Notes under the pieces: model-generated
What the model was told of the DNA's origin: nothing
The model's database searches: none
What the model saw: only the letters and a program-made list of their open reading frames with translations
Assembly (NCBI RefSeq): GCF_037081715.1
Contig: NZ_JAZDDH010000001.1
Span: forward strand, 868,001 to 932,000
Length of the DNA: 64,000 nt
DNA from: Halalkalicoccus sp. CG83
GTDB lineage: Archaea > Halobacteriota > Halobacteria > Halobacteriales > Halalkalicoccaceae
Reading direction: 5' to 3'
Shown: positions 41,291-46,953 of the stretch, piece after piece
Position numbering within the stretch: the stretch's first letter is position 1
How the letters are laid out: each line of letters opens with the position of its first letter
Made by a program: the position numbers and the translations under genes

Positions 41291-42289
41291 TTACGGTCTC
41301 GGTGCGGCCCGCTGGAGCGCGGTCTCGGCGATGTTGCCGCCGTAGTCCGCCGTCCGCGAGAGCGAGTCGACCACCAGTCCGAGGAACTGCGCCTGATGGG
41401 CGTCGTCGAGGGAGCGGATGCGCTCGTCGACGGTCCGGGTGTGCTCGTCGATCGCCTCGACCTCCTCGCGGGCCTGGTTCGCGAGCCGCGTCGCACGGTC
41501 CCCGTCGTCCTCGAGGAAGGCGTCCATCGCCCGCTCCACGATGGCGACCGCGTCCTCGTGGAGCGCCGAGAGCGCCTCCGTGACCTCCTCGGGCACCGTC
41601 CCGAGGTCGAGCGCGATCTGGGCGATCTTCGCCGAGTGGTCGGCGATGCGTTCGAGCTGGCGGGCGCTCGAGTGGTAGTCGAAACACGTCTCGCGGCCGA
41701 GACCGATCTCCGCCGCGGCGCCCGGGTTTCGCAGGGTCGAGCGGAACACCCGCGAGACCATGAACCAGAGCCGGTCGACGTCGTCGTCACGCTCGATCAC
41801 GCCGGTCGCGAGGTCGTCGTCGTCGTCGATCAGCGCGGAGACGGCGTCGGCGAGCATCGTTGTCGCGATCAGGCGCATCCGGGTGACGGCGTTGTGCACC
41901 GAGAGCTGGCCGGAGTCGAGCAGGTCCTGGAGGACGATGCGGTCGCCGGTCTCCTCGACCACCTCCAGTCCCACGAGCCCCTGGGTGGCGTCACGGACGC
42001 TCCGGCGTTGCCCGGCGCTGACCCGGTCCGTCTCCAGGTGGATGACGTCGAACCCGCTCACGTACATCGTCACGACCGCACGGGTCAGATCCCGGCCGTC
42101 GAGGTCGGCGATGTCGAGCGTCCCCTCGACGGGCTCGTCGCCGCGGCGCGGCGTGAGCAACAACGACTCGCCCTCGGGGTGGAAGCTGACCTCGGTTCCG
42201 GCCTCGATCCCGTTCTCGAGCGCCCACTCCTTGGGGATCGAGACGGTGAACGTCGACCCGCCGGTGATCTGCACCTTTCGCGTGTCCAT
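41291..42289 (-). CDS. AbrB-PhoU domain regulator of phosphate uptake
   Basis: 332 residues. N-terminal AbrB/MazE-type swapped-hairpin DNA-binding domain (TRKVQITGGSTFTVSIPKEW, residues 3-50), a linker, then two PhoU three-helix repeats (about 115-215 and 225-325; FVDYHSS-type motifs, SARQLERIADHSAKIAQ). The combination suggests a DNA-bound regulator that senses phosphate status through the Pst complex. It lies divergently to pstSCAB and shares a 244-bp promoter region with it. Confidence 0.87.
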   Translation of the reverse strand: MDTRKVQITGGSTFTVSIPKEWALENGIEAGTEVSFHPEGESLLLTPRRGDEPVEGTLDIADLDGRDLTRAVVTMYVSGFDVIHLETDRVSAGQRRSVRDATQGLVGLEVVEETGDRIVLQDLLDSGQLSVHNAVTRMRLIATTMLADAVSALIDDDDDLATGVIERDDDVDRLWFMVSRVFRSTLRNPGAAAEIGLGRETCFDYHSSARQLERIADHSAKIAQIALDLGTVPEEVTEALSALHEDAVAIVERAMDAFLEDDGDRATRLANQAREEVEAIDEHTRTVDERIRSLDDAHQAQFLGLVVDSLSRTADYGGNIAETALQRAAPRP

Positions 42290-42312
42290 GACTCCCGATT
42301 TCCGTTCGGATG

Positions 42313-42345
42313 TAGTAAATCTGGCTATGACTATATAGTAAATGT
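42313..42345 (-). promoter_or_regulatory. Promoter and operator-like motif of the AbrB-PhoU gene
   Basis: Reading on the minus strand from 42345: ACATTT, then ACTATATAGT (palindromic, 42330-42339), overlapping TCATAG (42325-42330), then AGATTTACTA (42313-42322). The last string is the likely TATA box, centred about 28 nt before the ATG at 42289. The upstream ACTATATAG and TCATAG parts recur in the same order before pstS. Confidence 0.65.
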
Positions 42346-42470
42346 ATCGATCGGCAGTCGTCGCGGCTCGGAGCCGGGACCGGTCCGGCGGATCGAACGA
42401 GCTACCGGACGAGACGGCGGTTTGAACGGGGAGGGTCGATCTCTCCGCTCCGGCCCTCCGAACCGCGAAC

Positions 42471-42508
42471 GTACATACTACTATATAGCAATCATAGTAG
42501 GATATTTA
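42471..42508 (+). promoter_or_regulatory. Promoter and operator-like motif of pstS
   Basis: ACTATATAG at 42480-42488, TCATAG at 42492-42497 and ATATTTA at 42502-42508. The ATATTTA is centred 29 nt before ATG 42534, so it is the TATA box of a leaderless transcript. The two upstream blocks match those before the divergent AbrB-PhoU gene in sequence and order, so they look like a regulator site, possibly the phosphate box. Confidence 0.65.
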
Positions 42509-42533
42509 TCGTCATGACGAGCACGTTCTGACG

Positions 42534-43505
42534 ATGTGGTCAGACAGGTCGTGGTGGCCGACCGGTTCCGTCTCTAGACGCGACGTCCTGGCCGCGACCG
42601 GCACGGCGGGCGCCGTCGGTCTAACCGGCTGTACCCGGGCGCTCAGCAGCGAGGAACGTGAGGTGAACATCGCCGGAAGCAGCACCGTCTTCCCAATCGC
42701 GGAGGCGATCGCCTCCGATTTCGTCCAGCGGAACCCCGAAGTGAACGTCTCGGTCAGCCAGACCGGCAGCGGCGGGGGGTTCTCGAACTTCTTCTGCCCG
42801 GGGATGACCGACCTCAACAACGCCAGCCGCCCCATCGCGGACGAGGAACGCTCCCAGTGTGCGACCAACGGCGTCGAGCCGATCGAGTTCACCGTCGGCA
42901 CCGACGCGTTGACCGTGGTCGTGAATCCCGAGGCCGACTGGGTCGACTGCGTGACCATCGACGAGCTCAGGGAGATCTGGCGGGTTGGCGGCGCCGAGCG
43001 CTGGAGCGACGTCCGCGAGGAGTGGCCCGACGAGGAGTTCGAACTCTACGGTGCCGACACGGTCAGCGGCACCTTCGACTACTTCCGCGAGACCGTCATC
43101 GGCGAGGAGGAGAACCACCGCAACGACTACTCGGCGACCGAGAAGGACCGGACGATCGTTCGGGGCGTTCAGGGATCGCCGTACTCGATGGGCTACTTCG
43201 GCTTCTCGTACTACAGCGAGAACCCCGACTCGATCAAGGCGCTCGCCATCGACGACGGCGAGGGCTGTATCGAACCCACGCTCGAGACCGCGAAGAGCGG
43301 CGAGTATCGCCCCCTCTCGCGGCCGCTGTTCACCTACGCCGCGAAGGCCGAGCTCGCGGACTCCGCCGTTCGGGAGTTCCTTCGCTTCTTCATCGAACAG
43401 GCCGCGACCGACCTCGTCTCGGACGTCGGGTACGTCCCGATCACCGAGGAGGAGCGCGACGAGAACCTCGCCCGTCTCGACGAGGCCATCGAGGACGTGA
43501 CATGA
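42534..43505 (+). CDS. pstS: Phosphate-binding lipoprotein PstS
   Basis: 323 residues. Tat-type signal SRRDVLAATGTAGAVGLTGC with lipidated Cys33. The mature part shows AGSSTVFPIAEAIASDF (phosphate-binding Ser-Thr), TGSGGGFSNF and GVQGSPYSMGYFGFSYY. It captures phosphate outside the membrane for PstCA. First gene of the operon pstSCAB-phoU, which begins with a TATA box 29 nt upstream of the start. Confidence 0.95.
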   Translation: MWSDRSWWPTGSVSRRDVLAATGTAGAVGLTGCTRALSSEEREVNIAGSSTVFPIAEAIASDFVQRNPEVNVSVSQTGSGGGFSNFFCPGMTDLNNASRPIADEERSQCATNGVEPIEFTVGTDALTVVVNPEADWVDCVTIDELREIWRVGGAERWSDVREEWPDEEFELYGADTVSGTFDYFRETVIGEEENHRNDYSATEKDRTIVRGVQGSPYSMGYFGFSYYSENPDSIKALAIDDGEGCIEPTLETAKSGEYRPLSRPLFTYAAKAELADSAVREFLRFFIEQAATDLVSDVGYVPITEEERDENLARLDEAIEDVT

Positions 43506-43572
43506 CCAGACAGAGCCTCCGTTCGATCCCCACGGGGTTCGACGGACCGAAACCGAGGTGTATCGACCGACG

Positions 43573-44508
43573 ATGAGCGACGCCACGACGCCCGATCTGA
43601 CCCGCAAGGGGGGACAGAACACGCGGGAACTCGCCTATCGGATCGGCTTTTTCACCTGTGCGTTGCTGTCCGTACTCACCACGCTCGCCATCGTCCTCAC
43701 GCTACTGGGCGACGCAGCGACCTTCTTCTCGGAGGTGTCGCCGGTCGAGTTCCTCACCGGAACGACCTGGAGTCCCGCTAACGATCCCGTCAACTTCGGC
43801 GTGCTCCCGCTGATCACCGGAACGCTCGTCATCACGTTCGGCGCCGCCGTGATCGCGCTGCCGGTCGGGCTCCTGACGGCCATCTACCTCAGCGAGTACG
43901 CCAGCGATCGCGCCCGGTCGGCGTTGAAGCCGGCGATCGAGGTGCTCGCCGGCGTGCCGACGGTCGTCTACGGCTACTTCGCGCTGGTGTACATCACGCC
44001 GGCGTTGAGCGTCGTCTTCCCGACGATCAGCACGTTCAACGCGCTCTCGGCCTCCATCATCGTCGGCATCATGATCATCCCGATGGTCTCCTCGATCAGC
44101 GAGGACGCCATGAGCGCGGTTCCCGACTCGCTTCGGGAGGCGAGCTACGGCCTGGGCGCGACGCGCTTTACCGTCTCGACGAGCGTCGTCGTCCCCGCGT
44201 CGGTCTCGGGCATCGCCTCCTCGTACATCCTCGCGCTCAGCCGGGCAATCGGCGAGACGATGGCCGTCACCATCGCGGCGGGGAACACACCCCGACTGGT
44301 CGACCTCACCGACCCCGCGGGGATCTTCCTCAACTCGATCCAGACGATGACCGCAGCGATGGTCCAGCTCGGCGCGAGCGACGTGACCGGCCAGTCGATC
44401 GCCTACCGGAGCCTCTTCGCGGTCGGGCTCGCGCTGTTCGTCATCACGTTCGCCATGAACCTGATAAGCGAGTGGGTCGCCTCACGCTACCGGGAGGTGT
44501 ATCGCTGA
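43573..44508 (+). CDS. pstC: Phosphate ABC transporter permease PstC
   Basis: 311 residues with six membrane segments; the EAA-type loop is [20 protein letters not shown]. Partner of PstA in the phosphate channel. It follows pstS after 67 nt. ATG 43573 is chosen over 43558. Its stop overlaps the ATG of pstA (TGATG at 44506-44510), a sign of translational coupling. Confidence 0.94.
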
Positions 44509-45398
44509 TGGCGGTCGAAACCGAATCCGAGGGGACGGCGTTCGGCGAGGTCAGCCGATGGAAGGACGTCGTCTTCGAGTACGTCACGCTCGCGGCGACG
44601 CTGTTGGGCATCGTCACGCTCGGGGTGTTGCTCGCCTACGTCACCGTCGACGCCGTCGGCTGGCTCGACCTCCAGTTCCTCACGAGCCCGCCTCACCCGC
44701 TTCCCGAGGAGGCAGGACTCTTCCCGGCGCTCGTCGGCTCGATCCTCCTGATGGTGCTCATCGCGCTCATCACGTTTCCGCTCGGGGTCGGTGCGGCGAT
44801 CTATCTCGAGGAGTACGCCTCGGACAACGCTCTGACGCGGTTCATCCAGCTCAACATCGCGAACCTCGCGGGCGTTCCCTCCGTGGTCTACGGGCTGTTG
44901 GGCCTCGGGCTGTTCGTCCAGCTCGTCAACTTCGGCTACGGGACGCTGTTGGTCGCCGGCTTCACCGTCTCGCTGCTGATCCTGCCGATCGTCATCATCT
45001 CCGCACAGGAAGCGATCCGGTCGGTGCCCGACTCCCTTCGACAGGCCTCCTACGGGATGGGCGCGACCAAACGACAGACGATCCGGAACGTCGTTCTGCC
45101 GCGATCGTTGCCCGGCATCATGACCGGGACGATCCTCGCGCTCGGGCGAGCGATCGGCGAGACAGCACCGCTGATCATGATCGGCGTGCCGACGACCGTC
45201 TTCGGCGTGCCGACCGGGCTGTTCGCGAAGTTCAGCGCGATGCCGATGCAGATCTACACCTGGTCGAGCTATCCCGATACGGCCTTCCAGTACGGCGTCG
45301 TCTCGGCGGGCGTCGTGACGCTGCTGGTGGTGCTGCTCTCGGTGAACTCGATCGCGATACTCATCCGCAACAAGTATCAGACGGAGAACTCAACATGA
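44508..45398 (+). CDS. pstA: Phosphate ABC transporter permease PstA
   Basis: 296 residues, six membrane segments, EAA loop [20 protein letters not shown]. The start codon overlaps the pstC stop, so I rejected the upstream in-frame start at 44472. Second channel subunit of the phosphate importer. Its stop overlaps the pstB start (ATGA, 45395-45398). Confidence 0.94.
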
Positions 45399-46273
45399 CA
45401 CAGGAGAACATGACGACGCCAGAACCGGACGAGGGCTACGAATCGATCGCGTCGACGAATCCGGGCACTGGCGGCATCTCGGAGGAACGAACGCGACCGA
45501 CCGACGATTCCGGCTCGTCGGCCGCACGAACCGTCATCGAGAGCCGTGACCTCGACGTCTACTACGGCTCCGACCAGGCGCTCGACTCGATCGACATCGA
45601 GATCCCCGGACGGGAGGTGACGGCGATCATCGGCCCGTCGGGCTGTGGGAAGTCCACGTTCCTCCGATGTATCAACCGCATGAACGACCTCGTCGAGAGC
45701 GCCCGCGTCGAGGGCGAACTGCTGTTCGAGGGCAAGAACGTCTACGACGAGGACGTCGACCCGGTCGCGCTCCGGCGCAAGATCGGGATGGTGTTCCAGA
45801 AGCCCAACCCGTTCCCGAAGTCGATCCGCGAGAACGTCACGTACGGGCTGAAGGTCCAGGGCAAGGAGGCCACCGACGAGAACGTCGAGCAGGCGCTCAA
45901 ACGTGCGGCGCTGTGGGACGAGGTGAAGGACAAGCTCGACTCCTCGGGACTGGACCTCTCGGGCGGCCAGCAACAACGCCTCTGTATCGCGCGGGCCATC
46001 GCGCCCGATCCCGAAGTCCTGCTGATGGACGAGCCCGCCAGCGCGCTCGACCCCGTCGCCACCTCCCAGATCGAGGACCTGATCGAGGAGCTCGCCGAAG
46101 ACTACACCGTGGTGATCGTCACCCACAACATGCAGCAGGCCGCTCGAATCTCGCATAAGACTGCCGTGTTCCTCACCGGCGGCGAGCTCGTGGAGTTCGG
46201 CGAGACCAACAGGATCTTCGAGAACCCCGACCACCAGCGGGTCGAAGACTACATCACCGGTAAGTTCGGCTAA
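45395..46273 (+). CDS. pstB: Phosphate ABC transporter ATP-binding protein PstB
   Basis: 292 residues. Walker [10 protein letters not shown] at 80-88, PstB-specific [27 protein letters not shown] and Walker B LLMDEP. The first 45 residues are an acidic, low-complexity extension found in halophile PstB proteins. It supplies energy for phosphate import. Overlaps pstA (start) and phoU (TAATG at the end). Confidence 0.96.
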
Positions 46274-46953
46274 TGGCACGCAAAAGCTACCAGCAGAAGC
46301 TCGACGAGCTGCGCCAGGACGTCCTCTACATGGGCGAGGTCGTCCAGGAGCGCCTGCGGATGGGGCTGGCGGCGCTCGAATCCAAGGACGAGGTGCTCGC
46401 GGAGGAGGTGATCACCCGCGACGCCGAAGTGAACGAGATGTACCTCGAACTCGAGCGCAACTGTACCGACCTGATCGCGCTCCAGCAGCCCGTCGCGGGC
46501 GACCTGCGCTTCATCGCCGCGTCGTTCAAGATCATCACCGACCTCGAGCGGATCGCCGACCTCGCGACCAACCTCGGGAAGTACAGCAAGCAGGCCACCC
46601 GCGACCTCTATCCCGACGTCGACGTCCAGGGGATCGGCGCGATCACCCTCGAGATGATCGAGGACGCGATGGCCGCCTACGCCGCGGAGGACGTCGAGTC
46701 CTGTTATGCGATCGCCGAACGCGACGACGACGTCGACGAGCGCTGCGAGCGTGCAAGCGAGGTCGTCGTCCGCGACCTGATCGAGACGGAGATCGGCGAC
46801 GGCACCGACGAGAGCGAGATCGAGGCCATGCTCCAGGACGTCTCGAGGCTCCTGCTCACGGTTCGCGACCTCGAGCGCGTCGGCGACCACGCCGTCAACA
46901 TCAGCGCGCGGACGCTCTACATGGTCGAGAACGACGACGAACTCCTTTTCTAG
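46273..46953 (+). CDS. phoU: Phosphate transport regulator PhoU
   Basis: 226 residues, two three-helix PhoU repeats (EVITRDAEVNEMYLELERNC and ERDDDVDERCERASEVV, with the E/D-X3-D metal motifs). PhoU represses Pst activity and signalling when phosphate is plentiful. Last gene of the operon. A T-rich stretch (CCTTTTTAC at 46958-46966) directly after the stop could end transcription. Confidence 0.95.
   Translation: MARKSYQQKLDELRQDVLYMGEVVQERLRMGLAALESKDEVLAEEVITRDAEVNEMYLELERNCTDLIALQQPVAGDLRFIAASFKIITDLERIADLATNLGKYSKQATRDLYPDVDVQGIGAITLEMIEDAMAAYAAEDVESCYAIAERDDDVDERCERASEVVVRDLIETEIGDGTDESEIEAMLQDVSRLLLTVRDLERVGDHAVNISARTLYMVENDDELLF

Follow-up and report, generated by a model that had tools for sequence, protein, structure and literature searches.

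The window, by which we mean the whole 64,000-nucleotide stretch of Halalkalicoccus sp. CG83 DNA that was analysed, includes an intergenic region (42290-42533) that separates a minus-strand gene for an AbrB-PhoU fusion protein from the plus-strand pstSCAB-phoU operon (42534-46953). Both of the divergent promoters in this region carry the same sequence element. Judging from sequence comparisons, this shared signal is almost certainly the switch for phosphate uptake and for the switch protein itself, and the element is probably a phosphate-starvation operator that is self-controlled. We consider it likely that the two elements are operators of a single haloarchaeal phosphate-starvation regulator, which would most likely be the AbrB-PhoU protein whose gene lies to the left. 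Compared with the PhoR-PhoB pathway of bacteria, the control of phosphate uptake in archaea is poorly defined. The question becomes directly testable once there is a precise consensus with fixed spacings, a small regulon and a regulator candidate that can be named, and a regulator placed under its own operator would imply a feedback loop.

The candidate regulator (41291-42289, minus strand) consists of a SpoVT/AbrB-type DNA-binding domain (Pfam PF04014, E 5.5e-10, residues 8-50) followed by two PhoU domains (PF01895, E 1.3e-22). Its matches in the PDB (e.g. 4q25, 1t72 and 1xwm) are restricted to the PhoU part, which makes up the C-terminal two thirds. The operon on the plus strand begins with pstS for the phosphate-binding protein (42534-43505; NCBIfam TIGR02136, E 5.5e-75), and continues with the permease genes pstC (43573-44508) and pstA (44472-45398), both assigned by Pfam PF00528, and with the ATPase gene pstB (45398-46273; TIGR00972, E 1.7e-115). 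The last gene encodes a classical PhoU that has no DNA-binding domain (46273-46953; TIGR02135, E 1.4e-48). All three NCBIfam matches lie above the cut-off. There is also a 5-codon ATG frame (MTSTF, 42515-42532) located between the TATA box and the start of pstS, which is relevant only if a longer, leadered pstS transcript exists.

On the pstS side, the predicted operator is composed of three blocks. The core ACTATATAG (42480-42488, plus strand), recognized by order-wide comparison, is separated by the 3-nt spacer CAA from the inner block TCATAG (42492-42497). The outer block TACATA (42472-42477), which conforms to the pattern TA..ATA and lies 10 bp upstream of TATATAG, had been missed by the initial annotation. 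A gap of 5 nt separates the stretch from 42480 to 42497 from the downstream TATA box TATTTA (42503-42508), whose centre lies 28.5 nt ahead of the ATG of pstS at 42534. On the AbrB-PhoU side, a minus-strand copy of ACTATATAG (42339-42331) directly abuts TCATAG (42330-42325), and together these form the predicted operator ACTATATAGTCATAG (42325-42339). The TATA box ATTTA (42316-42320, minus strand) is centred 29 nt before the ATG at 42289. This copy includes the 10-bp palindrome ACTATATAGT (42330-42339) and thus reads identically on both strands.

The order of these blocks, their positions on both strands and the placement of the TATA centres 28-29 nt before the starts had all been described in the initial annotation and were confirmed. 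Its spacer of 3 nt on the pstS side also stands, but the value of about -1 given for the AbrB-PhoU side is actually 0. Moreover, the two promoters do not share the similar spacing that had been claimed for them, in that the distance from TATATAG to the TATA box differs by 5 bp.

There are only two copies of TATATAG in the 64-kb window and both are found in this intergenic region. Similarly, the composite pattern ACTATATAG-N0-4-TCATAG has two matches in the window and none in 100 dinucleotide shuffles. A search of the whole 3.64-Mb genome for this composite, as had been proposed at the outset, returned these two copies as its sole exact matches. There are 23 exact matches among 243 genomes of the order, compared with 2 for the pattern read backwards. 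Nineteen of the 23, including the two in the window, are located at pst/AbrB-PhoU loci as judged by tblastn, and two more precede a PstS-like binding protein (one identified by Pfam, the other by its near-identical sequence). The remaining two (loci L014 and L015, positions 1501-1553) precede a gene for a Tat-signal staphylococcal-nuclease (SNase)-domain protein, which adjoins an MCM-like gene. It is possible that this protein is a phosphate-scavenging nuclease belonging to the regulon.

When 89 pst promoters of the order are aligned on the core, they exhibit the consensus TA..aTA...cTATATAG..aTcATAGtAGgGTAtTTA, in which positions -9, -8, -5 and -4 of the outer block TA..ATA are conserved. The spacer between TATATAG and TCATAG is exactly 3 nt in all 47 pst promoters that have TATATAG, and GTAYTTA follows TATATAG at an offset of 20 nt in 37 of 44. 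The geometry in the window matches that of these promoters, with ATATTTA present at the expected offset. Only acTATATAgat is conserved in the AbrB-PhoU promoters. Throughout the order, their core precedes the start codon by about 41 nt, and the offset from TATATA to TTTA is 18 nt in 57 of 78 representatives, which the window also fits. Thus, the distance between the core and the TATA box is 5 bp, or approximately half a helical turn, greater at pst promoters than at AbrB-PhoU promoters. As originally noted, both promoters in the window share TCATAG; beyond the window, only pst promoters have this block as a general feature. On the AbrB-PhoU side, TCATAG is common to four congeners only and is therefore a genus-level feature. 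These congeners carry CTATATA-T-TCATAG (CTATATATTCATAG; core CTATATAT), which differs by one base, so the exact combination of ACTATATAG and TCATAG at this promoter is a species-specific variant.

The association of the core with AbrB-PhoU genes is strong throughout the order. Among 126 canonical AbrB-PhoU genes (45-100% identical), 122 have TATATAG or CTATATA within 450 nt upstream, compared with 2 of 120 distal flanks located 900-1350 nt away at the same loci. In 77 of the 126, the core falls into a 16-nt slot that covers positions 36-52 nt before the start, compared with 2.0% in other slots. De novo k-mer enrichment ranks CTATATAG as the top 8-mer, which is present in 61 of 128 AbrB-PhoU upstream regions where 1.7 would be expected. 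The full pst element is found with at most 3 mismatches at 50 of 80 named loci, and shuffled controls never come closer than 7. The exact core in the AbrB-PhoU slot at -33 to -52 is present at only 32 of these 80 loci. AbrB-PhoU promoters of several Natrialbaceae (L236, L255, L291 and others) have a shorter CTATAG-type variant at about -41, and the pst side is often intact. Sequence variation of this type suggests lineage-specific drift of a putative autoregulatory site.

A search of ten genomes of the family with the pst consensus, allowing up to 3 mismatches, yields 20 matches, compared with none for the reversed control, and 19 of the 20 are located at Pst loci (pst/phoU/pstB). Together with the 21 of 23 exact matches in the order, this speaks against the concern that the motif might be common upstream of unrelated genes. 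The one other match (G050, C1:458247) has 3 mismatches, precedes a gene for a zinc-ribbon-like protein and was taken to be a chance occurrence. Three kinds of Pst loci are represented in the family, namely pst1 beside AbrB-PhoU, a second AbrB-PhoU gene accompanied by pstB or pst genes, and a third pst operon which has no AbrB-PhoU gene in the locus examined. The genome from which the window derives has sites at C1:910482, C1:1744571 and C1:2396576. Nine pst promoters with the element lie in loci that have no AbrB-PhoU gene. The presence of the element in front of such operons implies that the regulator acts in trans.

The unlinked third pst operon of the genome carries a two-mismatch copy, TATATATATATCATAGCATCGTACTTA (G000:C1:2396576-2396602), in front of pstS. 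At another locus (G000:C1:1743408-1746700), pstB-phoU, along with a gene resembling low-molecular-weight phosphatases and arsenate reductases, is transcribed divergently from a second AbrB-PhoU gene. The core is found on both sides there with the same geometry, and pstSCA was not seen within this stretch. With 3 mismatches allowed, the genome contains 74 matches to CTATATAGNNNTCATAG, compared with 88 for the reversed control. Weak matches of this kind are thus noise, and only sites with 0-2 mismatches beside Pst genes were used. Six other CTATATAG sites (C1:269836, C1:651383, C1:774736, C1:1495382, C2:350750 and C4:116541) were set aside; there is no recognised phosphate gene in the stretches viewed, and these sites lack a downstream GTAYTTA at the expected offset.

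The identity of the protein that reads the element can be addressed by examining more distant relatives. Outside the order, 17 of 31 AbrB-PhoU genes (approximately 32-39% identical) have TATATAG within 200 nt, where 3.2 would be expected, and only one of the 31 has it at a distance of 400-600 nt. The other 14 homologues lack TATATAG, and several of these are apparently located directly behind another PhoU-like gene. At five loci outside the order, two copies of TATATAG in the same orientation are found upstream of AbrB-PhoU, with a distance of 19-20 nt, or two helical turns, between them. Since the core follows AbrB-PhoU genes beyond the order but is missing in front of a clade of paralogues, AbrB-PhoU is favoured as its reader, with autoregulation, in agreement with the original proposal that the protein couples its own expression to that of pstSCAB. 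The accompanying proposal of one shared regulator, possibly AbrB-PhoU, is strongly supported by the comparison without being proven by it.

By comparison, a set of 20 divergent AbrB-PhoU paralogues found in the same haloarchaea all lack the core within 450 nt. Nineteen of these 20 have the AbrB sequence type RKVQRLGPSTLAMTLP (the RLGPSTLAMTLP paralogue), and the genes that carry the core have AbrB sequences of the TGGSTxTVSLP type. The TATATAG signal thus correlates with one class of AbrB sequence, which supports AbrB-PhoU as the reader, and the contrast between the classes offers a ready specificity comparison. However, a site may co-occur with a gene without being bound by the gene product, and the absence of the core in front of the paralogues may only mean that those genes are not autoregulated. 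With somewhat better than even confidence, we extend the proposal to one AbrB-PhoU fusion that would read TATATAG at pst and at its own gene, and would fill the role of the bacterial PhoU-PhoR-PhoB chain, in haloarchaea and in several lineages of the phylum outside the order, with the coupling between the AbrB recognition strand and the operator maintained phylum-wide.

We infer direct binding, reading by a dimer, phosphate sensing and the sign of control as follows. Like other members of the SpoVT/AbrB family, the AbrB domain would form a dimer, and in this form it would recognize the near-palindromic core CTATATAG. Additional AT-rich half-sites in pst promoters, each at a distance of about one helical turn (TA.ATA to one side, TCATAG to the other), would lengthen the site as far as the TATA box. 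The PhoU domains would report phosphate status from the Pst transporter or from the cell. At low phosphate, bound AbrB-PhoU would help TBP and TFB to start transcription of pstSCAB-phoU. By also binding to the promoter of its own gene, where the site is 5 bp nearer to the TATA box, the protein would set its own level; because of this half-turn difference, control of this promoter may differ.

With regard to the sign, we lean towards activation of pst at low phosphate. The pho-boxes of two pst promoters in Halobacterium salinarum are described as essential for upregulation (Furtwaengler et al. 2010, as cited in PMC6560208), and this was counted in favour of activation. Expression of phoU in H. 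salinarum rises during phosphate starvation (PMC11218638). In Haloferax volcanii, phoU2::Tn and pstS1::Tn are both hypochlorite-tolerant (PMC6267482), a common phenotype that is more easily reconciled with a positive role than with repression, even though the authors of that study argued otherwise.

The opposite sign, which is a variant of the same explanation with an identical reader, is possible although we consider it rather unlikely. AbrB-PhoU would then be a phosphate-dependent repressor that occupies TATATAG-TCATAG and blocks TFB and TBP at both promoters until starvation releases it. The inner block ends about 5 nt before the TATA box, which would allow a protein bound there to overlap with the BRE, and autorepression is frequent among regulators that have their own operator. 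However, the sites precede the TATA box and the start instead of covering them, the pho-boxes described in PMC6560208 fit an activator site, and the phenotype shared by phoU2::Tn and pstS1::Tn (PMC6267482) would be unexpected if PhoU2 repressed pst.

A more doubtful reading retains a genuine operator and assigns it to a regulator of the Lrp, SirR/DtxR or TrmB type, which would leave AbrB-PhoU as a co-regulated target or a modulator of transport. Precedents come from a single source, wherein Lrp overexpression in H. salinarum induces pstC2 and phnC, SirR is linked to phosphate transport in Halobacterium, and AT-rich inverted repeats are the binding motifs of an Lrp-like protein (PMC2894021). 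The same source, however, describes the effect of Lrp as possibly indirect. Unlike a global Lrp site, the motif is confined to Pst and AbrB-PhoU loci, and it both follows AbrB-PhoU genes across the phylum and tracks their AbrB sequence class.

It is very improbable that the block is a mere core promoter, that is, an AT-rich extension of the BRE and TATA box inherited by descent without a dedicated regulator. The element is indeed AT-rich and abuts the TATA box, but its restriction to this region of the window, its absence from all 20 paralogue promoters in the same genomes, the 20 matches against none for the control in the family, and its occurrence at separate pst operons with unrelated flanks all stand against this view. 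We give almost no credence to chance combined with a recent duplication within the intergenic region, for while the exact composite on the AbrB-PhoU side is a one-base variant peculiar to this species, both sides retain the core throughout the order, in geometries that are fixed and different, which already contradicts a recent copy.

The preferred reading, an operator recognized by AbrB-PhoU, has a relative among known systems. A haloarchaeal P-box or pho-box, reported for pst1 and pst2 of H. salinarum R1 (Furtwaengler et al. 2010, as cited in PMC6560208), is likewise located upstream of pst operons. The pst promoter of H. salinarum DSM 3754 carries the element with 2 mismatches to TATATAGNNNTCATAGNAGNGTAYTTA, and the pst operon beside AbrB-PhoU in H. 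salinarum has GCTATATATACGTAATAGCAGAGTACTTA in the homologous place. Since the element is present where pho-boxes have been reported, it is most likely the known P-box, extended here, with the present locus as a member; the two are likened by position and not by the published sequence of the box. In the literature searched, which leaves most subscription journals outside its coverage and thus allows for earlier reports, we found no order-wide consensus, no operator at the gene for AbrB-PhoU itself, no link of the element to one AbrB class and no extension of the core beyond the order.

The bacterial Pho box read by PhoB or PhoP likewise consists of repeated short half-sites in front of promoters for pst and other phosphate genes, with a half-site step of 11 bp. 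In contrast, the step here is 9-10 bp, as exemplified by the 9 bp from ATAG to ATAG that follows from the invariant 3-nt spacer (47/47), and the protein proposed to read the element is a one-component AbrB-PhoU fusion rather than a response regulator. As in SpoVT/AbrB-type transition-state regulators, this candidate has a PF04014 AbrB-type domain, and the core has the palindromic form that a dimer would be expected to recognize. Unlike those regulators, however, its AbrB domain is fused to two PhoU domains, and whereas bacterial AbrB binds degenerate AT-rich DNA, the core here is specific. Finally, the C-terminal two thirds of AbrB-PhoU resemble the PhoU accessory proteins of PstSCAB. In contrast to AbrB-PhoU, which carries a DNA-binding domain of its own, classical PhoU lacks one and exerts its effect in bacteria via PhoR; a protein of this classical kind is also encoded at the end of the operon.
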